From Blastocystis sp. Blastoise (Eukaryota; Sar; Bigyra; Opalinata; Blastocystidae): DNA of 64,000 nt. Each line of letters opens with the position of its first letter. The stretch's first letter is position 1. The stretch spans positions 186,001 through 250,000 of the forward strand of contig JBBPEB010000024.1 in NCBI GenBank assembly GCA_039096225.1, in the 5' to 3' direction. Shown here piece by piece: positions 8,925 through 64,000 of this stretch. A program made the position numbers and the translations under genes. The notes under the pieces were generated by a model that saw only the letters and a list, made by a program, of their open reading frames with translations, had not been told where the DNA came from and did no database searches.

Positions 8925-10274
8925 TACCTTTCTATTCTTTTATTATACAACATTCTTTTTTTAATAAATATATAAATAAAATAAATATTCTTTTTTGACT
9001 ATTGAATTTTTATTTAAAACGATTTTGACAACAAATTAGTAAATTATTTAAAAAATACTTTCAATAATGACCTGAATACACATTAGTGGCCATTTTACTC
9101 ACAAAACTAACAACTGTTTAAAAAATTAAACACAACAATGTAATTCACTCATTTTTTGATACTATTCATTTTTATTTTTTTAACTACAAACATGTTTAGA
9201 ATACTTACCATTATTAGAAAAACACTTTAGTGACATATTTGCAAAACATATTACAAAGAATGGGTCAAAATATCAAACTTTTTTTATTTTTTAATTGAAT
9301 TGAATATATATATTTAATATATACGTTATTTAAAAAACATTCAGTAAAAAATATTTATTACTATTGCTTTATAACTCAACAATTAAAAAAACATTTCAAG
9401 TTGACTCTTTAAAATAATTTTTAAAACTAACTATCAACAGTTTAATGAATTATTATGGTTTTGTTTAGAATCATCCAGTTATGAAAGACTTTTGAAAGAC
9501 TTTACCATTTTGAAATGTTTTGCATCAAAATAAAATCGTCTATAATTTTGTCATTCGTTAATATGTGTCATAAACAGTTACTAATAATCAAAATTGACTT
9601 GAATCTCTACTATGTAAAATTAATTGTAAATGAATTCACTCTTTAAAACAAAATATTGAAAAATAGGTTTAATTTCTTTATTTATATTTCATTATAAAAC
9701 TAAATTTTATCATTTTTTATTGAATTTAAAAAACATAGAGTCAGAATGAAGACACATCTTCAAAATACAAAATTATTTTAAAAGTATTTTTTACTCACAT
9801 ACATCTATATAACAGTATCCAACTCATTTTTACACTTTATGTTTAAAATTAATAGTGATAAGTCACAATTATACTGTTTTCAACTTTTCAATATAAATAT
9901 AACCAACACTTGTTTAAAGTCTTATATTATACATGTATTCAGTAATTGAATGTTAATTTGTCAAACAACTCATCAAAGTATCTTTACATCAGCCAATCTG
10001 TTTGTTAATTGTCTTCTAAAAAGTCAATATTTACAAATTGTATGTCTAAAGGCTTAATATATTTGTAAATATTAGTTGTATAATTTAGAACATTCTCATT
10101 CAACTCAAAATGAATAAAAAAACAAAAACAAAAAAACTTTAAAAAAGACGTAATAATTATTTATTTAATAACTCTTTCAATTTTGACTTAATAAAAATAT
10201 TTTTCATATACTTTTAATAAGAATAGCATAATATATATAAATTCTATTATATTTTATATATATATTATAAATTG
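8925..10274. other. AT-rich repeat-derived stretch, no genes
   Basis: No coding frame. The style (frequent CTTTAAAA, GTCAAC and TTGACT words) resembles the degenerate repeats at 39.3-40.2 and 43.1-43.8 kb, but I could not align it convincingly. Confidence 0.3.
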
Positions 10275-17721: not shown

Positions 17722-20700
17722 TTAGTAAAGAGAATAAAAATTTTGGAAATATATAAAAATTAAGTATTCATAATATATATATACATAAACAGCATCATCA
17801 ACAACTAAAAGATTTGATTGAATGACCCATTCAATTGGTATAACATAATCTAATTCAAAATCATTCGGATTAGTTATTACTCCATATAATTTATTGCAAG
17901 AGAACATGAAATTTTTGAAGTGTTTACCTATAATAAATAAACTATCACATACCTTTATTATTTCCTGGACTTGTAAAACTGAAATTGCTTCTGAAGATCT
18001 AATATTCCCTTTTTCATAAAAACAAAGAAAACTACAGTCAATTTTCATTACTTCTGGCTTAAATGAAGATTCAATAAAAACATTTGTATTATATACATTC
18101 TTTAGCATCATAAATATTTGTTTTCTTATAAGTAGATTACTTTTTTCTTTGGTATTTATATTAAAATCGTTGTTACAAAACGGAAGATTCATTATTTGAT
18201 TCTCTAAACAAAATCCATAAATTACTTTGATATCATCTTCACTAATAACCATCGTCTTATGAAGATTATATTTCCATTCTAATGAAAAGTTTGCATTTTT
18301 ATTATTCTGATTTCGTTTTGTTAAATTGGTTACAGACTTGTGTTGGTATGCAAATTCTGAAAGAATTAATTTGTTCATTAATGATGTGCAAGTATATCTT
18401 CTATTTAAAAGAAATCTCCTCATCATAGAATATGAACGTTCATACGAGGATGTAGAATATAATCTAAGACTGCCTAAATTCTGAATATTCTGTGGAATAT
18501 GAAGTAAAGAATGCAATTGTGTATTAAAGAGTATTGAGGGAAGAGTTAACTCGAGATATAAGACTATTTTTGTTGCCTCCATTTTCAATATATTAATTTC
18601 TTCTTGTGTGTATTCTGTACGTATTGTAAGTGTTTTGTTAATAAAAGAAGCCAAAAAGAAAACAACTGGAATAAGAAGACAATCATTTTCAGAGTATCCT
18701 TCTAATAACAGAGGTATTACTTTACAGAAAAAAAATATTCTATTATAAATAGAAGATGAATAGTAATCTATTTCATTGATCATATATGAATACGATCCAA
18801 TAGGAGATTTTTTGATTCTATTTATTTTACCAATTATATTATACATCGTAGAAAGAATATTTTCATTTAGAAATAGAGGAATACTATTATATATTTCTTG
18901 TTTAGTTAAACCAGATTTAATTTTATAAAATTTAACTAATGAATCCATTATGATTTTGTTATCAACTACTTTCTTATGATGGAATAATATCTGAATTAAA
19001 GTATCACAAATATTACCATATAAATGCATCCAGTCTAACGGCATACTATTGAATATACTATAGTAGCTCAGATACTTTTCATATAATGACTCAACTGGAG
19101 ACAGACCAAAGGAACCAATGTTTCTATCTTTTTTTATGTCTATTTCATTTCTTATTTCAATATCAATTGAATCGAAAAAATCTGGTTGTACATATTCCTT
19201 TTTTATAGTAATTGGCTTATCTAATATAATCTTGATATTAGAAGATAACGATTCTTTGGAAAGTTTCTTTTCTTCTTTTGAACATGAATACATTATAGGA
19301 AGAGATTTATTAACCATAAACGATCTTTTATCTGAATTAACTGAAGAAAAACATGTTTTGATTCCATTCTTTGTTCTTGCCTCCTTTCTTACTTTACAAT
19401 ATCTGCAGAAGAAACTGCCTACTTGATTATTCATATGAATTTGTTTTGCAGCTTCAGGAAAATCGCAGCAACTACATAATAGGATGGCTTTAGCAGTGAC
19501 ATATTTATTTTGATTTTTATCATAGAATTTAATACCATTCTCGTAAAGATACTTGAATTCCTTGAGTAAATACTCCATAATAACTTCATTAATAGCTGAT
19601 TGAGTAACAGAATAAAAGTAATGACTTTTAGAATCTAAACATTGTTCTAAGGAATTATTTAACAGTAATAACGATATAGGAGTTGTGGATTTATTTTCTG
19701 GATTTTTTGAGTGATTATAGAGAGCTACACCATCAACAGACATGGTAAAAGTAAAAACATAGTCACATGTTTTTAAAATAGGTGAAACATAAGAAGAAAA
19801 AAGTTCCGAATAAAATAAGGGATTGATATGATGATTATTAGGGATTCTTTTTGTTTCTAGGTAGGACAATATTTCTGTAGATTTTATGAAAGATAATTCT
19901 TGCATTTGTTTTTCGTCTGATAATAATGAAATAATTCTATAACACAGTGGATACATAATTACTTTCTGAATAGTACTATCTATATATTGTGTTGAATATT
20001 AACTAAAGAATATAATATTGAATAATTATATATAAAAGCTAATAACAATTGCTTTATTATTTATTATATTAAAAAAATAAAAAAGATATATATTTATATA
20101 CCTGTTCCACATAAACACTTGTTGTATTCCTTAGATAAGCGCGGCTCAAGATGGCTAATATCGAATTGAATAACCTTTTGGCATTTTTGACATATAAACA
20201 GTGTAGCTCTATTTTTATAATTATCCATGTATTTTCTTTTCATTTTTCTTAACATTTTTTTACCATTTTCTTCCAAAGTAATATTATTTAAATTGATTAT
20301 ACTATCTTCTTGACATTCTTTAAGAAACAAAATCATGTTTTCTATTTGTGATTCTGTCATTGAATTCTCATGAATAAGATTCATTAATCGTATGAAAAAC
20401 CTCTTATTTTTGCTATCATTTTGAACTTCATCATTCTAAATAGTTTATTTATCAACAAATATGAATGTATATACATTTTGTTTTTGTTCAATGGAATTCA
20501 ATAAACAATTTATATAACTATCTATATAAAAAGAAGATAATCATGAGTCAATATATATATATACCTTCTGAAATCTGACAAGTTTCCGTAAATAATATAT
20601 CATCTATTTGTAATATTTCGTTATCATTTGATATCGTATCAATTCTTGTTGATCCATTTTGAATATGTTTGTGACTTTTTTTATTTGATCTTTTCTCTCT

Positions 20701-25001: not shown

Positions 25002-27007
25002 CAAAAAACAATGGATAATTTTGCAAAAAACAATGGATTTACATATATATATATTAATAAAAATTTTTATTGAGAGACTACTATAAGGTCAACCAAAATT
25101 GCCCTAAAAGCCGATTCAATTTTTCTTTGATTTTTTATAGTCGGCTTTTAGGGCAATTTTGGTTGACCTTATATGACTTTGGGAATATTTTTTTTTATTT
25201 TTTTATTTTACTTTTAAATGACGTTTTTAATAAGATTCGTGTTCTAAAAGAACATTATTTGTGTTTTTTATGTTACAATAAACAACTTCTAATCATTAAT
25301 TCTATTCATTGTTTAAAAGGAATTTTGTACTATATCCTATATTAACACTTCATACTATTGCTTACTTGTTTATTAAACATGTCTCTCTTTTTCGCTGACG
25401 TTACTAACCCTGATTCACGTGCTGATTACTTGCTTTCCGTTCCTCCTATTATTCCTCAGCCAATAGAATCTGTTGATTTTGAACTTGCTCCATCTGTTCC
25501 AATGATTTTTGAAGCTCTTCCTCCTATTCAAACTGCTAATAACCCTGTTGCTACAATTCCTACTGTTCCTATTGCTCCTAAACGTATTTATGTTAAAGTC
25601 ACTCAAATTCAACGTGATGCGTTAAGAAGATACTATTCTGAACATGGTGAAACATGGTCTGTTCTTACTTATTCGACTAAAACTGGTATTAAACCGAAAC
25701 AAACATCTGCTTTCATTAAGATACTTCGTGATGGTGGTTCTATTGATTTATCAAGTGTGAAGAAAGGAAGAAAGAAGTTAATTACTGTTAATGGTTCTAT
25801 AAGATTAACTGAGATGATTAGAGAAAACAATAAGATAACACTTACTGAAATGTCTACGAAATTAGCTACTCCTGAACCAATAAATGAAGAAGAAGATAAT
25901 CAAGGAGAAGAAGAAGAAGATAATGGTGTTATTGATGCTTCTATTTCTACTATTTCTAGACATCTTCGTTTTGGTATGGAAAAAGATGGTCAACCTGCTT
26001 TTACTATTAAACTTGCTTCTCATAGAGAACCTGCTAGTAATACTGCTGCTAATAAAGAAAAGAGAATAGAAGTTATTCAAAAATTGAACCTATTAGAATC
26101 TCGTGGTCATATGATAGTGTATGTTGATGAAAGTCATTGGGAAGTTGGTTTAGTTCATCGTCATTTGCGTTCTCCAAGAGGTGAAAAAGCATTTGATAAT
26201 TGTAACTCTCGTTCTTTAAGTATAACTGCTCTTACTTCTATTTCTACTTTAGGTGTTGGCTATACTGAGTTAATTCATGGATCCGTTAATGCTGAAATCT
26301 TTCAATCCTATTTAAGTGGATTGTTGAACTCCCTCAATGGTACTGGTAGTCACGTGATTTATTTGGATAATGCATCCATTCATCACGATCCTGGTGTTGC
26401 TGCTAAGGTTAGTGAAGCTGGTCATCAACTAGTTTTTGGAGCTCCTTATAGTCCTGAACTTAATCCAATAGAAAAAGTCTTTGGATTCTGGAAAACTCGT
26501 GCTGAAAATGATTTGAAGATCTTTACAAATCTTGAAGATTTGGTTAATAAGATTGGAAATCATTTTCGTTCGATTAATCCAATGGAAGTTCGTGCAACTA
26601 TCCAAGGAACTATCCGAAACGTTTGGCCTAAGGTTATGAACAGAGATGATATATAAACAGTTATTTATATATACTTTATATATATATTATATATAAATTT
26701 GTTCAGTTTTTTAATATTTTGTTTTGTTTATTGTAACATAAAAAACACAAATAATGTTCTTTTAGAACACGAATCTCATTAAAAACGTCATTTAAAAGTA
26801 AAATAAAAAAACAAAAAAAAAATATTCCCAAAGTCATATAAAGTCAACCAAAATTGCCCTAAAAGCCGACTATAAAAAATCAAAGAAAAATTGAATCGGC
26901 TTTTAGGGCAATTTTGGTTGACCTTATAGTAGGCTCCCAATAAAAAATTTTATTAATATATATATATGTAAATCCATTGTTTTTTGCAAAATTATCCATT
27001 GTTTTTG
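25002..27007 (+). mobile_element. second Tc1/IS630 element, inserted in the hAT left end
   Basis: Inverted ends: CAAAAAACAATGGATAATTT at 25002 against the complement ending at 27007. Each terminal repeat contains a further palindrome of 84 bp or so (25090-25173 and about 26846-26932), built from GGTCAACCAAAATTGCCCT and its complement, so each end can fold back on itself. A TA follows the right end, but no matching TA precedes the left end, so the exact left boundary is uncertain. Confidence 0.7.
25379..26656 (+). CDS. Tc1/IS630-family DD34E transposase, 425 aa, intact
   Basis: Start chosen at the first ATG of the frame (25379); stop TAA. Order: Pro-rich N-terminus, helix-turn-helix region around residues 75-130, a KKGRKK basic hook, an acidic Glu-rich loop near 170-182, then the catalytic core with Asp250 (YVDESHWEVG), Asp330 (YLDNASIHHD) and Glu365 (NPIEKVFGFW), the last two separated by 34 residues. 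It is clearly related to but diverged from the enzyme at 6712-8021. The codon use is distinctive, with many CCT/GCT/CGT codons, richer in GC than the neighbouring hAT gene, as expected of a more recent arrival. The frame is complete, so this copy may be active. Confidence 0.85.
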   Translation: MSLFFADVTNPDSRADYLLSVPPIIPQPIESVDFELAPSVPMIFEALPPIQTANNPVATIPTVPIAPKRIYVKVTQIQRDALRRYYSEHGETWSVLTYSTKTGIKPKQTSAFIKILRDGGSIDLSSVKKGRKKLITVNGSIRLTEMIRENNKITLTEMSTKLATPEPINEEEDNQGEEEEDNGVIDASISTISRHLRFGMEKDGQPAFTIKLASHREPASNTAANKEKRIEVIQKLNLLESRGHMIVYVDESHWEVGLVHRHLRSPRGEKAFDNCNSRSLSITALTSISTLGVGYTELIHGSVNAEIFQSYLSGLLNSLNGTGSHVIYLDNASIHHDPGVAAKVSEAGHQLVFGAPYSPELNPIEKVFGFWKTRAENDLKIFTNLEDLVNKIGNHFRSINPMEVRATIQGTIRNVWPKVMNRDDI

Positions 27008-55705: not shown

Positions 55706-56440
55706 TAATAACATTTCTGAAGTAAAATAACCATGGGAGTGTAGGGTAGTGTGTGTGTGTATTTATTTTTTCCCATGTTTATTTATTTTTAATTTATTTG
55801 TGTTCCGATTCCAACGTGAAACGTAAAGTGATCAAGGAGAAACTCATAGTAATCATAAAAGAAATAAAATACACACTCACACCCTCCCCTTTACAGGGAA
55901 TATTCATAGGAAATGACTCCATCGTTGGTAAAGTGAGTAAAATAATCACGGGAATACAGAAAGAAATACGAAAAGAAGCACAGAATGTGCTAAATAAACA
56001 CACACCCCGACCCTCCCTTTATATAGAGAAAAGATGAAATGGATGGTTCTATCTAAAAAGAAATAATAAAAATAATCACGGGAATATATAAAAATAAAAA
56101 TGTATGTATAGTGATCAATAAATAATATAAAAAGTCATGATAATCATAAAAAATTTATATAAAAAAGAGTAAAGTGATCAAGGTATGTATTTATAGTGGG
56201 TGAAAGAAAAGCTGGTGGTGGTGTGGTCTTGTAAAAAGATGTACCCACCACCACGATTATAACGAGAGACTTTTGGAAACAAGGGTGACCGTTATGGAAA
56301 TAGGATGCGTCATCGTGAATTGTCCAATCAAATTGCTTAAAAATGTAAAAATGAGGGATTTTGGAACACAAAAACACAATTATATTGGGGAAACTGGGGA
56401 AACTAATTGTGTTCCAGTGGTTTTAGGTGGCGGCATGTAT
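55706..56440. other. junction region between host repeats and PLV, no certain gene
   Basis: Contains a 94-codon plus-strand frame (55753-56037) with a plausible basic segment (NVKRKVIKEKLIVIIKEI...) and repeated TAATCACGGGAATA and GTGATCAAGG words, possibly exon duplicates; function unknown. At 56211-56258 a GGTGGTGG/CCACCACC inverted pair, and at 56373-56412 a CACAATTA/TAATTGTG palindrome, lie upstream of the PLV recombinase. A CCAAT box is at about 56322. Confidence 0.35.
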
Positions 56441-56447
56441 ATCAATT

Positions 56448-56495
56448 TTCTAGAATATTCTAGAACATTCTCGAAACTTCTAGAACATTCTAGAA
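56448..56495. promoter_or_regulatory. heat-shock-element-like array, 5 units
   Basis: TTCTAGAA at 56448, 56458, 56478 and 56488, with TTCTCGAA at 56468: exact 10-bp spacing. It lies about 90 bp upstream of the recombinase start codon. The pattern (alternating TTC and GAA separated by 2 bp) is the consensus for heat shock factor binding. Confidence 0.7.
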
Positions 56496-56583
56496 CATGA
56501 GAATCTTAGATATTTTATTTTGATTTTCTTATGTATTATTCTTTTGAAAATAGAAGTTTTAGAGATTCTACTTGAGAAAATCA

Positions 56584-57519
56584 ATGAAAAATACAAATTA
56601 TGACAAGTATCTTTTGGTTATACAGAATTCAAATTATTCTGATATTTGGAAAAAACGTTTAACCAATTATTTCAATTTATATATTTTCCCATTACCATTT
56701 AAAAAGTTCTCAGAATTCTTAAAGAATCCTTATTCATTCATGGATTATATGGTAAATGAACGTAAAATCAAAATTAGTCCAATGAAATCGTTATGTGAAT
56801 TGATTTTATTTATTATACGTAATGTTTCTTCATTAAATAAAGAAGGTATTTTAAATAAATGGTGTGAATTTTATGTGATTATCAATTCAATGTATGAAAA
56901 ATATCTGGATAATAAGAAACGCACTTTGATTCAAGATCTTATTAAAGATGGTATTACGACTCCTTATTTACATGAATATCACGATAAATTAGAAAATTAT
57001 AATCCATTACGATTAATATTAGATTTTTACTCCTATCTTCCTCCTGCTCGTGCTGATTATGCTCAATTATTCATTCTATCACCAGAAGATACTATTGATC
57101 CAACTATTCATAAGAATTATATTGTTTATGATAAAGAGAAACACACTGGTTCTATTCTATTAAATGATTATAAAACTGCTGGTAAATACTCTACAATTCA
57201 ATTAGATGCACCAAAAGAATTGATTGAAGATCTAGAATTACTCTTAAAAAGAAATCCAAATCGTAAATTTATATTTGAATCTTCTGTAAGAACTGGATTT
57301 ACTACTAAAGCATTTGATTGGTTTGTGAATAAGCATTTAAAACAAATCCATCCAAAATTGACCATTAATGCATTAAGAAAATTATATGCTACAACTACAA
57401 CCAATACATTCCAAGATATAGAAAATTCTGCTTCTGCTTTATGTCATAATGATTATACACATATTAATTCTTATGTATCTTTAGAAAATAATAATTTATT
57501 TAAAAAATTAATTGAATAA
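56584..57519 (+). CDS. PLV tyrosine recombinase (integrase), 311 aa
   Basis: Start set at the first ATG of the frame (56584). The catalytic domain is complete: Arg156 in LPPARADYA, Lys197 in LNDYKTAGKY, Arg265 in INALRKLYATT, His288 in ALCHNDYTHI and the nucleophile Tyr297 in INSYVSLENN. The PPxRxDY and DYKTxxxY contexts are those of recombinases from polinton-like viruses, virophages and related giant-virus elements rather than Cryptons. The first 130 residues form the helical core-binding domain. It would integrate and excise the viral genome by strand exchange. The gene is intact, has an HSE-like array upstream and a TTTGTTTTGTTTTAA motif 16 bp after its stop, and is convergent with the gene at 57593. 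Confidence 0.85.
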   Translation: MKNTNYDKYLLVIQNSNYSDIWKKRLTNYFNLYIFPLPFKKFSEFLKNPYSFMDYMVNERKIKISPMKSLCELILFIIRNVSSLNKEGILNKWCEFYVIINSMYEKYLDNKKRTLIQDLIKDGITTPYLHEYHDKLENYNPLRLILDFYSYLPPARADYAQLFILSPEDTIDPTIHKNYIVYDKEKHTGSILLNDYKTAGKYSTIQLDAPKELIEDLELLLKRNPNRKFIFESSVRTGFTTKAFDWFVNKHLKQIHPKLTINALRKLYATTTTNTFQDIENSASALCHNDYTHINSYVSLENNNLFKKLIE

Positions 57520-57534
57520 TTTTATGTTTTTATG

Positions 57535-57549
57535 TTTGTTTTGTTTTAA
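57535..57549 (+). promoter_or_regulatory. PLV 3' motif TTTGTTTTGTTTTAA
   Basis: Sense-strand copy directly after the recombinase gene. Counterparts follow other PLV genes, each on the coding strand: 58000-57988, 58253-58241, 60565-60553, 61489-61477 and 63121-63132. Possibly an mRNA 3'-end or termination signal. Confidence 0.45.
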
Positions 57550-57592
57550 TTTTGAATATAACTAAACAACTAGTAATAAAAGGATATAAAAA

Positions 57593-57967
57593 TTAATTAA
57601 AAGGTAAGAAAGATAGATTATTATTATTATTTTGATATTGATTTTGTTGTTGATTACTTTTCATAGTTGGCATAAACATATTATTGGGTTGAATAAGATT
57701 CTTATCATCTTGATATTGATTCTCATTCTTCATATATTGTTTATCCAATAGCATTTCAAGACGTTGATGAATCACAGGATCATCTATATAAAGTAACATG
57801 TTTCTACAGTAACTCAATTGCAAATCACTAAGATTCTTGTTGTTATTATTATTTAAAAATTGTTCTAATAGATTTGCTATTTCATTCTTTTTGGATTTAA
57901 TTCCTTCTTCTTTTAGATTCTTCATCACACGACAAAAATAAGAATAACTAAGATATTTCTTGTTCAT
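57593..57967 (-). CDS. PLV hypothetical protein, 124 aa
   Basis: ATG to TAA. Residues 1-85 are helical and basic, with an LxxLLEQFL segment and a C-x(2)-N motif; the last 40 are Gln/Asn-rich and end in a short hydrophobic LSFLPFN. No family recognised. Two TTCTAGAA units lie about 100 bp upstream (58068-58085), overlapping the end of the preceding gene, which suggests its own promoter. It is convergent with the recombinase gene, with 73 bp between stop codons. Confidence 0.6.
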   Translation of the reverse strand: MNKKYLSYSYFCRVMKNLKEEGIKSKKNEIANLLEQFLNNNNNKNLSDLQLSYCRNMLLYIDDPVIHQRLEMLLDKQYMKNENQYQDDKNLIQPNNMFMPTMKSNQQQNQYQNNNNNLSFLPFN

Positions 57968-58067
57968 TATTTAAATTAACCAATGATTAAACAAAACAAA
58001 TTAATTATATAAAACACTAATATAATAAATTAAAGATTCTACAAATAGAGCCAGTTCAAAATGAATG

Positions 58068-58085
58068 TTCTAGAATGTTCTAGAA
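58068..58085. promoter_or_regulatory. HSE-like pair
   Basis: TTCTAGAA at 58068 and 58078, 10 bp apart, followed by a degenerate TTTCTTGG unit. Upstream of the gene at 57593-57967; overlaps the last codons of the small membrane protein gene. Confidence 0.6.
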
Positions 58086-58225
58086 CGTTTCTTGGACATA
58101 TAAAAGTAAAGTAAAATATATATAATAATAAGAACAATTTCAATAACTGACAATATTTCATTTACATTCTCTAAAGTTTCTGCACTACGATCTAAGTAGT
58201 AATTGCCAAATCGTTTCTTTGTCAT
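58070..58225 (-). CDS. PLV small single-pass membrane protein, 51 aa
   Basis: Start at ATG 58225 (an earlier in-frame codon is internal to the intergenic motif). A basic N-terminus (MTKKRFGNYY) is followed by a polar segment and one strongly hydrophobic helix of about 20 residues (residues 25-45, VIEIVLIIIYILLYFYM), ending in a basic KKRSRTF tail. Its promoter would include the TTCTAGAA pair at 58290-58307. Small membrane proteins are common in PLVs and virophages, but no specific function can be given. Confidence 0.55.
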   Translation of the reverse strand: MTKKRFGNYYLDRSAETLENVNEILSVIEIVLIIIYILLYFYMSKKRSRTF

Positions 58226-58289
58226 TATAGTATTAAATAATAAACAAAACAAATTAATTATATAAAATATTAATATAATAAATTAAAGA

Positions 58290-58307
58290 TTCTAGAATAT
58301 TCTAGAA
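58290..58307. promoter_or_regulatory. HSE-like pair
   Basis: TTCTAGAA at 58290 and 58300, 65-80 bp upstream of the ATG of the small membrane protein (58225). Confidence 0.6.
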
Positions 58308-58311
58308 TGTT

Positions 58312-58845
58312 TTAACAAGGCATAAGATTTCCATTAGAAAGTAAATAAAGTAAAGAATAATAAAAGCAACCATTTGCATTACTTGTAGTTTTTTGGTGTT
58401 GAATAGGATTATATTGAATATTATGATTTTGAATAAATGATTTTGAAAAAGTAGGTTCATTTCCTAATGATGAATAGTGTTCTATGTTTTTATTACCATT
58501 ATAAATAACAGCTTCAAAATGACCATTATAAGGATCACTAGGACTTTCATGAAAGATCATATTAAATTTAGTTTGATCTTGATCTATATTTTGTTCAAAA
58601 TCATCATAACTATTATAATAATTATAAGATTGAGAATTCGTTTTATTTAATTGTTTCATAACATTTTCAGCACGATCACAAGCAACAGAAGAGGTAGGTT
58701 TATTTAAATAAGCATAATTATATAATTGAGATATTAAAGAATTTGGTATATTACAATATTGAGATAGAGTTTGTTTGAAATTATCAGGGGATCTAGGAGT
58801 AACATGACGAGTTTTATCAGATATAATAGGATTATCGCAATTCAT
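58312..58845 (-). CDS. adenain-like cysteine protease of the PLV
   Basis: The first ATG of the frame is 58845, giving 177 aa, but the open frame extends upstream to about 58932 and overlaps the 3' end of the structural precursor gene (see the frameshift site). Numbered from Met58845, the catalytic region shows His109 in YNGHFEAVIYNG, an acidic residue in IEHYSSLG (Glu122), Gln-containing QHQKTTSN and Cys160 in ANGCFYYSLLYL. The order His-acid-Gln-Cys and the spacing match the adenovirus-type C5 protease family of adenoviruses, polintons and PLVs. Unusually, Gly precedes rather than follows the Cys. The role would be maturation of capsid proteins at Gly-Gly sites. It may be made mainly as a fusion to the precursor. 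Confidence 0.65.
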   Translation of the reverse strand: MNCDNPIISDKTRHVTPRSPDNFKQTLSQYCNIPNSLISQLYNYAYLNKPTSSVACDRAENVMKQLNKTNSQSYNYYNSYDDFEQNIDQDQTKFNMIFHESPSDPYNGHFEAVIYNGNKNIEHYSSLGNEPTFSKSFIQNHNIQYNPIQHQKTTSNANGCFYYSLLYLLSNGNLMPC

Positions 58846-58877
58846 TGAATTTTGAATTAATTTCTCATCTTTACTCT

Positions 58878-60524
58878 TTACCAGATCCCCTCCCCTGAGT
58901 TTTTTGATAACATATATTTCTTTTTTTTCCAAAACAATTCGTCACCTGTATTTAATGTTTCATTATTATCTATTTTCTGTTTTATAATTTGTAATTGTTT
59001 TAAATCAGCCTCTTGTATTTTACGTTTTTTTCGTGCCACTCCTGCAGGTATTATAAAATCTGTATAAAATGATACTAATGGATTCAAATCACCACCTCTT
59101 TTCTTTTTAGCTTCTTTTCCTCTTCTCATTCGTTCTAAGAATTCTGCTTTACTTAATTTAACTCGACCACCATAACCTCTACGTTTAGCTCTTCTTGCAG
59201 CTATTCGTTTATCCCTTTCATCTTCTTTCCATTTTCTATCGACTTTCTCTTTATCATTTTGAGGGAAACCATAAATCTTATAAGGATAACTTTGTTCATC
59301 ACGAGGCATAGGTTTATAAGGTTGAGGAGGTTGCGAATGTTGAGGAGGTCGAGGTTGAGTAGGTCGATCAACTTGTTGTTGTGGAGGTGGTGGAGGTTGA
59401 ACAACGGGTTGTGGATGTAGTCTATCATCTTCATCAAGAGCATCTTGCATTTCATCAGCTACATCATAATATCCTTCAAACATTTTATTTATTGTATTTC
59501 CTGAACCTATTTGTTTTTTCATTTCATTTAATGCTTGTTGACGTTTTAATTTTTCCATTTCAAATTCCATATCATTTAATTCACTTGATTGTTGTGCCAA
59601 ATGTGTATCATAATAAGCTTTTCTACCTTTAGCAAAAGAATCCATACCTTTATCAACTACACCTAATAGAGCTGGTGCATAATCCATCAATCCGCTCCAG
59701 AATCCACCACCTCTTTTTACTCTTAATATACCATCACCACTTTGAGCTGAATCTAAATCTATATATTTTGGTATAATTGAAGGTCTTAACATTCTTCTTA
59801 ATTTTGGATTATTAATTATTTTCTTATTTTTAATTGCATTCATAATTGCTGAAGCAACTGATATAGGAATCTTTCCACCACGTTTAATTTTATGTTCATA
59901 GAATCTTTTGAATTCATCATCAAGATCATGATGACCGTCACCAACATATTGAGCTAAAATAGCTAATGCATCACGAGCTTTTCTATTAGCTTTTTTATCT
60001 ACAATAGCATCTCTTATATCTAATACATTTCGTTGATACATATCTTTTACTTTATTTTTAATTGCATCACCAATACCAGAACCTTGATTATTCTCTAATT
60101 TATTGATTTCTGATTTATTTGGAATAATACCTCTACCAGATTTACGTCTTGGTTTACATGGATTTAATACCTTATATTGACGATCTTCACCATCTATTTT
60201 ATCTTCTTCTGGACCAGCTGCTTTCATTACACCTTTACCTGCTGCTCTAGCACGAATTAAAGCACCATTTCCTTGTGGAACAGCATCTTTACCAAATGTT
60301 TTAGAGCGATCTACATAATCATCTTCTTTACCATCATGTATTTCTTTACTTTCTAAAGTAGACACAGGCATAGATGAATTTGGACCTATTTCATGAAATA
60401 TTGGATTATATTGATCCATTTTATGTAATGGTTGTGTATTATATCGCCTATATTCTTTTCCAGTTGAAATTAAATTCATACCAAAAGTACCAGGACTTGG
60501 CATTCCTAATATACAACTTTGCAT
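58878..60524 (-). CDS. PLV structural precursor with Gly-Gly sites and pVI-like segment, 548 aa
   Basis: ATG at 60524, stop TAA at 58880-58878. The chain is basic and divided by candidate protease sites: KSGR-G (128-132), KRGG (214-217), KRGG (270-273) and KRGG (475-478). After the second KRGG comes GFWSGLMDYAPALLGVVDKG, an amphipathic helix much like the membrane-active segment of adenovirus pVI and pX-type proteins of polintons. A coiled coil (about 305-335) and a Pro/Gln-rich linker (about 365-410) follow, then a very basic region (RRAKRRGYGGR) that could bind DNA. I infer a polyprotein cut by the adjacent protease into minor capsid and DNA-binding pieces. The coding region near its end carries a slippery heptamer leading into the protease frame. 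No TTCTAGAA array precedes it. Confidence 0.6.
   Translation of the reverse strand: MQSCILGMPSPGTFGMNLISTGKEYRRYNTQPLHKMDQYNPIFHEIGPNSSMPVSTLESKEIHDGKEDDYVDRSKTFGKDAVPQGNGALIRARAAGKGVMKAAGPEEDKIDGEDRQYKVLNPCKPRRKSGRGIIPNKSEINKLENNQGSGIGDAIKNKVKDMYQRNVLDIRDAIVDKKANRKARDALAILAQYVGDGHHDLDDEFKRFYEHKIKRGGKIPISVASAIMNAIKNKKIINNPKLRRMLRPSIIPKYIDLDSAQSGDGILRVKRGGGFWSGLMDYAPALLGVVDKGMDSFAKGRKAYYDTHLAQQSSELNDMEFEMEKLKRQQALNEMKKQIGSGNTINKMFEGYYDVADEMQDALDEDDRLHPQPVVQPPPPPQQQVDRPTQPRPPQHSQPPQPYKPMPRDEQSYPYKIYGFPQNDKEKVDRKWKEDERDKRIAARRAKRRGYGGRVKLSKAEFLERMRRGKEAKKKRGGDLNPLVSFYTDFIIPAGVARKKRKIQEADLKQLQIIKQKIDNNETLNTGDELFWKKKKYMLSKNSGEGIW
58899..58905 (-). promoter_or_regulatory. candidate -1 ribosomal frameshift site A_AAA_AAC
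   Basis: On the minus strand the heptamer A AAA AAC occupies codons 541-542 of the 548-aa frame in the exact X_XXY_YYZ register. Slipping back one base enters the protease frame at CTC (58899), giving Leu-Arg-Gly-Gly-Asp immediately. The zero frame ends 7 codons later. A G-rich AGGGGAGGGG lies 4 nt downstream; no strong stem-loop is evident by eye. Confidence 0.5.
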
Positions 60525-60552
60525 TTTTTTATTTCAATTATAAAATTATTTA

Positions 60553-60565
60553 TAAACAAAACAAA
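60553..60565 (-). promoter_or_regulatory. PLV 3' motif after the 60600-61193 gene
   Basis: ATTTGTTTTGTTTA on the coding strand, about 35 bp after the stop of the 197-aa gene and about 30 bp before the start of the structural precursor. Confidence 0.4.
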
Positions 60566-60599
60566 TATATTAATAAAAAATAAATTTAACATTAAAAAT

Positions 60600-61193
60600 T
60601 TATAAATTAGTTAAATCAATAATAGTATCATTACTATTAGTATTCTTCGTAGATTTATCGATGACTTTAATAGAACGAGCATATAAACCAATATAATACT
60701 TGTTATTATAACGATGAATACCATGTATTGTAAATAATACTTTACATAACGTATTTGGTGGAATATACTTTTCACGTATTTCTTCGTAAGTTAACTTAGG
60801 ATCTTTACCGATATTAATCTTCTTATCTCTTTTATCAGTAATATCAATAGTAACATTCTTCGATGCATTAATAGGTACTTTAATTGTAATCTTATACTTA
60901 CCATTATCCATACGTACAAAATTAACAATATCACCATCAGGACATAATTCACATAATTTACGATAAAGTTCTTTATAAGCAGTTAAGAATACTTGATTAT
61001 CATCTTCAATTGTTAATAAAGTCCATTTATCACGTGTAACAATATAACCAAATAAACATGGTGTAGCATCAGTAGAAATACATACACGATGATTATTATT
61101 TAAAAGAACAGCATTTTCTTTGGTGTCATCCCATTGTAAATTAAAGTTAGAAGTATCAAGAATAGTAGGTTTTTTAAATTCAGTTGTAGACAT
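60600..61193 (-). CDS. PLV hypothetical protein, 197 aa
   Basis: ATG at 61193, TAA at 60600. Mostly alternating beta-strand pattern (YKITIKVPI, NVTIDITD, LCKVLFTIHGI, KYYIGLYARSIKVI), with a helix around residues 68-82 (VFLTAYKELYRKLCELCP) and an acidic C-terminal tail (DTIIDLTNL). The strand-rich fold with an acidic tail resembles OB-fold single-stranded DNA-binding proteins in outline, but I see no specific signature, so a replication role is only a guess. It has the strongest regular HSE-like array of the minus-strand genes about 80 bp upstream (61271-61318). Confidence 0.6.
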   Translation of the reverse strand: MSTTEFKKPTILDTSNFNLQWDDTKENAVLLNNNHRVCISTDATPCLFGYIVTRDKWTLLTIEDDNQVFLTAYKELYRKLCELCPDGDIVNFVRMDNGKYKITIKVPINASKNVTIDITDKRDKKINIGKDPKLTYEEIREKYIPPNTLCKVLFTIHGIHRYNNKYYIGLYARSIKVIDKSTKNTNSNDTIIDLTNL

Positions 61194-61270
61194 TTTTAGT
61201 TAAGTATTTAGTAAAAATATAAGTATTTTAATACTAATATTTTACGATATTCTTTTCAAATGAATCAATT

Positions 61271-61318
61271 TTCGAGAAGGTTCTAGAAGGTTCTAGAAGG
61301 TTCGAGAAGGTTCTAGAA
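61271..61318. promoter_or_regulatory. HSE-like array, 5 units
   Basis: TTCGAGAA at 61271, TTCTAGAA at 61281 and 61291, TTCGAGAA at 61301, TTCTAGAA at 61311; GG between units; strict 10-bp period. Upstream of the 197-aa gene (ATG 61193). Confidence 0.75.
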
Positions 61319-61476
61319 AAAAAGAACACTTGAATAATCTAATGGAAACATTTTAACGGAATCGAACCATGATACTGTGGTTACATATTTCTTTAATAGA
61401 TCCATTAGACCATTCAAGAATTCTATTTGAAACTATTCTATTCTCCATTTAAACTTTGTGTAATTAATTTAAAAAA

Positions 61477-61489
61477 TAAACAAAACAAA
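61477..61489 (-). promoter_or_regulatory. PLV 3' motif after the 61512-62039 gene
   Basis: TTTGTTTTGTTTA on the coding strand, about 25 bp after the stop codon. Confidence 0.4.
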
Positions 61490-61511
61490 ATAATTAATTA
61501 AATAAAAATAA

Positions 61512-62039
61512 TTAATGATCAAATATTTCAGACATAGAAGGAATAGAATATTCGGATAATAATGAAACAATTTCTTTAGAATCATCATGAATCTGTTTCA
61601 AATCTTGTTTCTGACTTTCAATCTTTGTTTTTAAATGATCAACAGTACAATAAATACCATTTAATATATTATCAGCTGTTTCAATAGTTTGAAATAAAGA
61701 TTCGAATTGACTGGATATATTTGTTAACTCCTCATTTGTAAATAATAATGCTTGCTTATCAGGATTTGTATTTACTTGATCTTGAAATTGTATTGGTTGA
61801 TTGTTAACCGAATGATATCTATCTGGATTTTTAGATACGTAAACATCATTGATTGGATGAATTTCTTGAGGTGGATCTTCAAACATGATTTCGTCACGCG
61901 AATTAAAACAGAAATCATTATCATTGGGTAAAGCCATAGGATTTGCAGAAACACTATTTTCAAATGGATTCAACAAGGGGGATATCATGGCTTGACCGAA
62001 AGGGGATAAACTGGCAGAAAGACTATCAGGAATTTCCAT
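61512..62039 (-). CDS. PLV hypothetical coiled-coil protein, 175 aa
   Basis: ATG at 62039, TAA at 61512. Residues 1-95 are Ser/Pro/Asn-rich and probably disordered. Residues 100-165 form a predicted long helix with heptad character (LTNISSQFESLFQTIETADN ... LKTKIESQKQDLKQI). No family recognised; it could be a trimeric or oligomeric virion or assembly protein. It is divergent from the gene at 62438, sharing a 400-bp promoter region with CCAAT boxes and one TTCTAGAA unit. Confidence 0.55.
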   Translation of the reverse strand: MEIPDSLSASLSPFGQAMISPLLNPFENSVSANPMALPNDNDFCFNSRDEIMFEDPPQEIHPINDVYVSKNPDRYHSVNNQPIQFQDQVNTNPDKQALLFTNEELTNISSQFESLFQTIETADNILNGIYCTVDHLKTKIESQKQDLKQIHDDSKEIVSLLSEYSIPSMSEIFDH

Positions 62040-62437
62040 GATTATTTAAACCTTCAAAAGTATTTTTATACAATATATTAAATATACTATTTTTAGTGTA
62101 CAGTTCTTCATTTCAGTTGCTAACAAAAGCCTATTGCTTCCAGCTGGAAAATAAGCCAATAAAATAGCTTATTTCGTATGACAAGTCGTCGTCATCGTCT
62201 AATTGTGTTTTACTAATTTTTTTATCCAATCAGATTACAGATGCCGACTATACTCGTCATCGAAACACAAATAAAAAATGCTAAGTCGACAAAATTAGCC
62301 AATCAAATGAACCTTCTAGAACATTCCATAGAGATTCTACACTGTCTCCTAGAATATTTAATATTCCATTTAAATGTATTATTTATTTCATTTTGATAAA
62401 TACAAATTTTCTCTCTGTAACGATATTCGCGATTATA
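62040..62437. promoter_or_regulatory. divergent PLV promoter region
   Basis: Contains CCAAT boxes (about 62155, 62225 and 62299), two CGTCATCG words (about 62192 and 62258) also present at about 56308 upstream of the recombinase, and TTCTAGAA at 62314 followed by half-sites (ATTCC, GATTCT, CTAGAA). Confidence 0.45.
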
Positions 62438-63061
62438 ATGCAATTTAATCTTTCTGCTGATTCCCGTAAATGTCTTCAAACTGTTCGTATGGAACTTCTA
62501 AAGAATTCTAAGAAGGCTGTTGAAGTTCATAAGAATGTTCTTCGTGATATTGATTTACATCAGTCTCAATTGAATAGAGAAAAGAATCTATTGGGTATTG
62601 CAAAATCTAAAGAACGTCTTGCTTCTTTCGAAGTCGAAAACTATAGATCAGCTTTAAAACGTATAAACGCGGTTATTAAAGGTCTTGAAGATTATGAAGA
62701 ATTCGCTGCTGATATTTATACTCAACAACTTAATGAAGAACAAGATATTCAAGATATTATCAATACTGAAGATCTTTTAGAAAGTGATAGAACTACTATT
62801 TTATGTTCTGAAGATTCTAAAGAACATTCGAATTCTCAAGATGATGATTTTGATATTATGAAATTCCATATGGAAGATGGATTCCTCTATGATGAAAAAG
62901 GTAAAGTTTATTCTTATGAAGTTGTTCATGCTAAGAGTATTAACAAGATTAAAAGAGATCCTTCAAAACAAATGTATTTCTGGGATGGTATTTTATATGA
63001 TAAGAATGGATGGCCTCATTCATGTACATATATTAATAGTCAAGAACCAATTGAAATTTAA
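62438..63061 (+). CDS. PLV hypothetical protein, 207 aa
   Basis: Start at ATG 62438 (the frame opens slightly earlier without an ATG). Residues 10-100 are a long charged helix with heptad pattern (VRMELLKNSKKAVEVHKNVL ... LKRINAVIKGLEDYEEFAAD), probably a coiled coil. An acidic linker follows, and then a compact C-terminal domain with two similar hairpins (EDGFLYDEKGKVYSYEVV and WDGILYDKNGWPHSCTYI), which look like an internal duplication. No family recognised. The TTGTTTTGTTTA motif and two HSE-like arrays follow it before the primase gene. Confidence 0.55.
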   Translation: MQFNLSADSRKCLQTVRMELLKNSKKAVEVHKNVLRDIDLHQSQLNREKNLLGIAKSKERLASFEVENYRSALKRINAVIKGLEDYEEFAADIYTQQLNEEQDIQDIINTEDLLESDRTTILCSEDSKEHSNSQDDDFDIMKFHMEDGFLYDEKGKVYSYEVVHAKSINKIKRDPSKQMYFWDGILYDKNGWPHSCTYINSQEPIEI

Positions 63062-63120
63062 TTATTTTTCTTGTTTATTTTTCTATTTTTACTTATAAAC
63101 TTGTAAAAAATCATTGAAAA

Positions 63121-63132
63121 TTGTTTTGTTTA
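63121..63132 (+). promoter_or_regulatory. PLV 3' motif after the 62438-63061 gene
   Basis: TTGTTTTGTTTA on the coding strand, 60 bp after the stop. Confidence 0.4.
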
Positions 63133-63171
63133 TTGTATATACATTTAAAACACTAAAGTATAAAAAGGATG

Positions 63172-63319
63172 TTCTAGAAGGTTCTAGAAGGTTCTAGAAT
63201 GTTCTCGAAGGTTCTAGAACATTTAAAAATATAAAGTAATATTTACTATTATAGAATGTTCTAGAAGGTTCTAGAAGGTTCTTGAATGTTCTAGAAGCTT
63301 CCAAAACTGACTTCTAGAA
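63172..63319. promoter_or_regulatory. two HSE-like arrays upstream of the primase
   Basis: First array: units at 63172, 63182, 63192, 63202 (TTCTCGAA) and 63212. Second: 63259, 63269, 63279 (TTCTTGAA), 63289 and a degenerate unit at 63299, then a single TTCTAGAA at 63312. Within each array the period is 10 bp. The last unit is about 70 bp before the primase ATG (63388). Confidence 0.7.
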
Positions 63320-63387
63320 TCTTTAATATATTATTTGTTTTAAATGTTGTATTATAATTATTTTCATTATTTATAAGTCAAATAATC

Positions 63388-64000
63388 ATGGAAAATTCAC
63401 AAATTCATTTTGTTTATACTTTTGGTTCCTTTAATCATGATAATTCAAAAGATAATCATAGTGAAATTATTATACCAAATCCATTACCATTTTATAAAAG
63501 TCTATTTACTAATTATCAAAATCCAAAAGAATTATTACATTATATTGATTGTACTCCTTGTAATACATCAACTAATTATAGAAGATTATGGTTTGATTTA
63601 GATTATCACCAAATATCTGATGATTTTTCTTTTCTAACAGATTCTTTTATTCATGAATTTATTGAAGAAATATGTAATCATTGTATTCATTATTATAATC
63701 AAGAATTTATTTCGCTTGTGTATACAAAGAAAGAAGTGAATAAGAAGACAGTTCATAATGAAATACATTATTCATGGGGAATTCATATATATACGAATTG
63801 GTTTGTAAATGGTGATTATTTATTTTTCTTATATAATAGTATGATTCTGAATACCAAATTGGTTGATTTATGTAAAACATATAATTTAGATATAAAAGAA
63901 TTCATTGATTATAATGTTATTGGTAAACCCAGAAAGAATAATGGTTGTATGTTTCTTGGTTGTAGTAAAGATAATTCTCCATCTACTTATAAATTATATG
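63388..64000 (+). CDS. PLV archaeo-eukaryotic primase (AEP), N-terminal part, cut by the window edge
   Basis: ATG at 63388; open for 204 codons to the last base of the window. The AEP motifs are visible: an acidic metal-binding motif in RRLWFDLDYH (about residue 75), a Ser/Gly-x-His motif in YSWGIHIYTNW (about residue 133), and a third region with IDYNVIGKPRKNNGCMFLGC that matches the D-x-x-V-Y...R-x-L-x-x-S-x-K region of D5-type and PLV primases. In PLVs this domain is usually fused to a superfamily 3 helicase that starts viral replication; the helicase would lie beyond 64000. The HSE-like arrays immediately upstream suggest the replication gene is under the same control as the recombinase. 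Confidence 0.75.
   Translation, partial: MENSQIHFVYTFGSFNHDNSKDNHSEIIIPNPLPFYKSLFTNYQNPKELLHYIDCTPCNTSTNYRRLWFDLDYHQISDDFSFLTDSFIHEFIEEICNHCIHYYNQEFISLVYTKKEVNKKTVHNEIHYSWGIHIYTNWFVNGDYLFFLYNSMILNTKLVDLCKTYNLDIKEFIDYNVIGKPRKNNGCMFLGCSKDNSPSTYKLY

Follow-up and report, generated by a model that had tools for sequence, protein, structure and literature searches.

The junction between two overlapping genes of an integrated viral element very probably acts as a functional programmed −1 ribosomal frameshift signal, as judged from the sequence of 28 copies. The element lies in the 64,000-nt stretch of Blastocystis DNA analyzed here (the window) and is taken, from weak domain matches and the arrangement of its genes, to be a polinton-like virus (PLV). 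On its minus strand, an open reading frame (ORF) of 548 aa (58878-60524), a putative virion core or structural precursor on the basis of the ORF and its matches in other lineages, is followed by a protease frame listed at 58312-58932 (TTG start, 206 codons) and shifted −1 relative to it. After a slip, the protease coding region delimited by frame, alignment and dN/dS would comprise 195 codons and a stop (58312-58899). Frame comparison of the copies gives a stop-to-stop overlap of 64 nt (58878-58941); the 55 nt reported in a preliminary description of this DNA is correct when counted from the TTG. The same description had placed a slippery heptamer, A_AAA_AAC, at 58905-58899 in the exact −1 register, and we find it there, read TCA AAA AAC in the zero frame. 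Its further claims, that a slip would give a fusion of about 737 aa (542 + 195 by arithmetic) with Leu-Arg-Gly-Gly-Asp as the first −1-frame residues in the window copy, and that the protease frame is devoid of ATG until 58845, likewise agree with the sequence.

All copies analyzed originate from the one genome containing the window (33.3 Mb, 34 contigs). A six-frame search of this genome with the window protease yielded 34 scored candidates and 29 matches; the 29th match, a 72-base fragment (L029), was omitted, leaving 28 copies of the gene pair. These belong to three lineages, in which the protease is 97-100% (lineage A, n = 21), 65-67% (lineage B, n = 4, L022-L025) and 50% (lineage C, n = 3) identical to the window copy. 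Genome searches with one B and one C protein revealed no lineages beyond these. The upstream 548-aa protein has a match in all three lineages over its first ~150 aa; in B there is also a weaker one beyond these residues. Outside this genome, no relatives were found in viral contigs using the protease alignment, the capsid-like ORF, the primase-helicase, the 548-aa protein or the lineage C protease as query, nor in other genome contigs or phages (tblastn), each scan being based on a few short peptide patterns.

A heptamer of the X_XXY_YYZ type located within the overlap (58899-58905) is present in all 28 copies, across the three lineages, always in register for a −1 slip joining the upstream and protease frames. 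In five element stretches (window 56001-64000, L061, L064, L065 and L066), the ORFs of at least 100 aa, taken over all six frames, amount to 9,319 codons, among which A_AAA_AAC occurs in frame four times; all four occurrences are at this junction. When 17 slippery types are considered, 38 in-frame heptamers are found in 7,202 codons (four stretches, ORFs of at least 150 aa). Around the heptamer, the positions of the stops vary between lineages. The zero-frame stop comes 8 codons after the AAA codon in A, 2 after it in B and 7 after it in C; in lineage B it directly abuts the AAC of the heptamer, as TAA in two copies and as TGA in the other two. A −1-frame stop is located upstream of the heptamer in every copy, at 36 nt (A), 3 nt (B) or 15 nt (C). 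Retention of overlap, register and heptamer in relatives as distant as lineages B and C lends weight to the −1 frameshift reading of the preliminary description, as does the lack, in 7/7 B and C copies, of an ATG that would encompass the protease domain. None of the 28 copies lacks the overlap or the heptamer while encoding the protease as a stand-alone gene.

According to a first alternative, which we regard as improbable, the protease is a separate gene translated from its own ATG, whether on an mRNA of its own, through leaky scanning or by ribosomes that reinitiate past the zero-frame stop. Lineage A offers some room for this, since in its 21 copies the protease frame has an ATG 20 codons after the heptamer (58845 in the window), 32 nt beyond the zero-frame stop, from which a shorter stand-alone protease could be made. 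In B and C, however, the protease frame has no start of its own near the junction (7/7 copies): the first ATG is found 54 or 82 codons past the heptamer in B and 83 codons past it in C, inside the conserved domain according to the alignment, so that the whole protease domain is not encodable from its own ATG in these lineages. A separate protease promoter is not seen either. A motif scan identified a promoter-like motif, TTTGTTTTGTTTA, upstream of the 548-aa ORF (60553-60565, minus strand), with other minus-strand sites at 57988-58000, 58241-58253, 61477-61489 and L061:4253-4265. Five ORFs of lineage A, of 31, 548, 51, 124 and 598 aa, have it 15-28 nt ahead of their ATG, and it is perhaps a viral promoter; one exact match outside the element, at 26718, precedes no ORF. 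The motif is absent between 58253 and 60553, also when one mismatch is tolerated. As L064-L066, the stretches of B and C, yielded no exact match, this argument is valid for lineage A only. Moreover, a separate gene would leave both the heptamer and the RNA stem described below unexplained.

For a −1 frameshift signal, RNA structure is expected some 5-9 nt past the heptamer. At this distance folding of the 3' region reveals an 11-bp stem, beginning 7 nt past the heptamer and additional to the features in the preliminary description. The spacer (58892-58898, minus strand) is of equal length in all 28 rows of an ungapped alignment. Folding, covariation and shuffles together define the 5' arm (58881-58891) and the 3' arm (58786-58796), both on the minus strand and 84 nt apart. 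All 11 pairs can form in 24 copies, and 10 of 11 in the other four (L023 and the three C copies). In the 28-row alignment, which contains 11 distinct rows, 98.3% of the stem cells are paired, double-sided changes occur at 5 of the 11 pairs and 4 pairs never vary, whereas sliding the stem partner by 1-3 columns lowers pairing to 25-60%. Among 500 shuffles of the 3' letters, none reached the observed percentage paired, number of double-change cells or covariation score; the number of pairs with double changes was reached by 3 and that of further pair types by 66. Without prompting, RNAalifold predicted 10 of the stem's 11 pairs. When the protease region was scanned exhaustively for stems shared by five representatives, the 11-bp stem ranked first, and every 7-bp helix fully kept in all five belonged to it.

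Because the stem arms are coding, shuffles of synonymous codons were chosen as a control. Allowing spacers of 4-11 nt and a partner within 250 nt, none of 1,000 such shuffles of four representatives reached the observed minimum of 10/11 pairs and 8 reached 9; in total, 43 of 44 stem pairs are observed, versus a shuffle mean of 31.5 and a maximum of 39. L023, which has one broken pair, was outside the representatives of both the shared-stem scan and the synonymous shuffles and was included in the 28-row analyses. Over ~120 nt, folding compared with shuffles gave z values of −3.5 for the window, −2.2 and −1.19 for lineage B (L022 and L023, respectively) and −4.5 for lineage C. Shorter segments of 79 and 49 nt, which lack the 3' arm, fold less stably than their shuffled counterparts (z of +1.8 and +1.2), indicating that the stem is long-range. 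A pseudoknot formed by pairing of the loop with downstream sequence was seen in none of three representatives; lineage C offered one 6-bp candidate, and a search of five representatives at the level of 7-bp helices found no conserved second helix. Overall, the RNA hairpin seems to have been retained through compensating mutations. The outermost pair (columns 15 and 120 of the alignment) varies within lineage B: two copies have G-C and one has A-U, and L023 has an A-C mismatch, which resembles an intermediate state.

The heptamer also contains a run of six A residues, kept in 28/28 copies, on which RNA polymerase could slip and join the two frames through mRNAs with an extra A. This is slightly less probable still than a separate gene: the length is invariably six A, with C as the next base, in the register suited to the ribosome and with a conserved stem at a 7-nt spacer, and a longer A8 run nearby, which some lineage A copies have, is not conserved.

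Signs of selection on the −1 frame just past the heptamer point in the same direction, in a supportive role only. For codons 3-38 past the heptamer, read in the −1 frame, A-B comparisons give uncorrected dN/dS values of 0.38 and 0.48, and the value within B is 0.06; read in the zero frame with stops skipped, the same stretch gives 0.61-0.63 between A and B. Comparisons of the −1 frame with lineage C are uninformative (0.73 for A, 1.0 for B). The calculation in other frames skips at least 5 codons throughout on account of stops, and 6-12 per comparison involving B or within B and C. Since the zero-frame A-B ratios are also below 1 and the C comparisons amount to 0.73-1.0, the dN/dS contrast is modest.

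The similarity of these codons as −1-frame protein between A and B also bears on the proposal that splicing of a small intron eliminates the zero-frame stop and so brings the two frames together. In favor of this, the host is presumed eukaryotic and a GT is present at the stop in lineage A, but the codons that would be removed are those similar as protein, and in B the zero-frame stop abuts the heptamer; we consider an intron very unlikely. Least probable of all, to the point of being negligible, is gene decay or an assembly error: damage does exist, as L020 carries a nonsense codon in the protease frame, L021 a protease frame cut short and L022 a broken zero frame, but the junction is intact in these three, the identical frame break is found in 28/28 copies of three lineages, and 26 of the 28 have a full-length protease frame.

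Pfam and PHROG scans assigned neither protein to a family: the best Pfam E-value was 0.46, with none below 0.4 for the 548-aa protein, which had no PHROG match either. A profile search of the PDB found no relative. The protease assignment therefore rests on folds and invariant residues. In 6/6 aligned rows from the three lineages, His129 (numbered from the heptamer; codon 58519-58521), Gln169 (58399-58401) or Gln171 (58393-58395), and Cys180 (58366-58368; all minus strand) are invariant and in the order typical of clan CE, as candidate catalytic His, candidate and alternative oxyanion-hole Gln, and candidate catalytic Cys, respectively. At the usual place of the acidic third residue, in the His-Gln interval, there is no clear Asp or Glu and an invariant Tyr-Ser-Ser-Leu-Gly-Asn is found. 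A first structure model of the protease was too poor for use. A second model was subsequently built from the domain minus its first 37 residues, with the lineage C sequence first; this model, which is of low confidence, is similar to proteases of clan CE, those of virophages and poxviruses included, and Sputnik V9 (E = 4.4e-2) and the MELD virus protease (E = 8.5e-5) are among its best viral fold matches. The downstream protein is thus likely a clan CE (adenain/Ulp1-like) cysteine protease. The adenovirus-type protease of the preliminary description is upheld to the extent of a likely clan CE fold in a low-confidence model.

According to the preliminary description, proteases of the adenovirus type cleave at the consensus (M/I/L)-x-Gly-Gly. 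The Leu-Arg-Gly-Gly codons directly past the heptamer (58888-58899, minus strand), a candidate self-cleavage site, are kept in 25 of the 28 copies, namely all of A and B, which differ at these codons by synonymous changes only; the three C copies have Leu-Pro-Thr-Arg-Gly instead. The Gly-Gly codons, whose conservation in relatives the preliminary description had singled out as a check, are thus conserved in A and B and not in C. Self-release of the protease at the junction, as suggested there, is accordingly plausible for A and B, whereas lineage C gives it no support. An internal Val-Lys-Arg-Gly-Gly-Gly-Phe-Trp of the upstream protein (59697-59720, minus strand), a candidate processing site, has counterparts in B and C. 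One Arg-Gly-Gly site with matching context is common to five zero-frame proteins of A, B and C, with Phe-Trp next in A and C; this shared site suggests, without proving it, that Arg-Gly-Gly is what the protease cuts. Read as (M/I/L)-x-Gly-Gly, the internal Arg-Gly-Gly sites are a misfit, the residue four before the cut being Lys, Arg or Ser. Gly-x-Gly-hydrophobic motifs are also frequent.

With respect to the remainder of the element, two paralogous ORFs that are 28% identical (L061:7373-8845 and 9016-9999, plus strand) are candidates for capsid proteins, a PLV being expected to have a double jelly-roll major capsid protein; by sequence, neither has a Pfam match, and the one tested has no convincing match among solved structures. 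As to the primase-helicase and tyrosine recombinase expected of a PLV, a helicase-like ORF of lineage C matches DUF5906 with an E-value of 1.7e-4, below the cut-off of that family, and its lineage A counterpart has no match. A Phage_integrase match in the element (E = 0.085) is also below cut-off. Adjoining the precursor gene in B and C is a methyltransferase-like ORF (L064:3839-4660 and L065:3861-4661), of the Pfam D12 class in L065 (E = 1.2e-33) and alike by eye in L064; lineage A in the window has no such ORF beside the precursor gene. The segment 58091-58279, containing a 51-aa ORF, is seemingly missing from the copy at C23:290000-299999, where the alignment breaks between repeated upstream sequences. 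Elsewhere in the window, a 744-aa ORF (17722-19956, minus strand) has a Transposase_21 match (E = 5e-7).

The following course of events would account for the conserved junction. Most ribosomes would translate the 548-aa precursor and terminate at 58878. Some would be held up by the RNA stem 7 nt past A_AAA_AAC, upon which the two tRNAs would slip back one base and translation would enter the protease frame, yielding the precursor-protease fusion. Being fused to a virion precursor would keep the dose of the protease below that of the precursor, and would carry the protease into the particle as in retroviral Gag-Pro. Slipping, its rate, packaging and cleavage are what we infer from the features described above.

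In adenovirus-like DNA viruses, the maturation protease is known to be made as its own protein. Retroviral Gag-Pro, by comparison, is produced by −1 frameshifting at a heptamer of the A AAA AAC class. The junction described here resembles Gag-Pro in heptamer class, in having a structural precursor upstream and a protease downstream and, by inference, in a fusion that is the minority product. It differs in belonging to a DNA virus, in employing an unrelated cysteine protease of likely clan CE, and in having a long-range stem with no conserved pseudoknot found. We lean towards the view that a Gag-Pro strategy arose independently in these integrated DNA viruses: the protease would be made solely as a frameshift fusion to the virion precursor, dosed by a hairpin that compensating mutations preserve, packaged by virtue of the fusion and, in lineages A and B, self-freed at a Leu-Arg-Gly-Gly resembling the Arg-Gly-Gly sites of the precursor.

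The preliminary description had regarded such an arrangement as new for a PLV. In the open-access literature searched, the closest printed statement comes from a single 2024 preprint (PMC11071296), the relevant passages of which use KnotInFrame to suggest that penton genes of adintoviruses may undergo −1 frameshifting and, in one sentence, note 'a similar relationship' for potential hexon-adenain ('Hexain') fusions. Hexain likewise implies a −1 frameshift fusing a virion protein to an adenain-type protease in a polinton-related virus, but its partner is hexon, whereas the precursor here is a different protein (PMC11071296). The adintovirus statement is made, in these passages of PMC11071296, without register, conservation or structure, whereas 28 copies and covariation are available here. 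As a kind, then, the frameshift-fused protease was already proposed; within the literature searched, the instance, the fusion partner and the comparative evidence are new. The likeness to virophage and MELD virus maturation proteases (Sputnik V9, MELD virus protease) is one of fold, in the low-confidence model.

A conserved recoding signal at this position would demonstrate that the way in which Gag-Pro doses and packages a protease has arisen separately with an unrelated enzyme. Recoding could also explain why the protease has been missed, or called broken, in some integrated viruses, and the combination of heptamer, 7-nt spacer and long-range stem provides a searchable signature for other integrated viruses.
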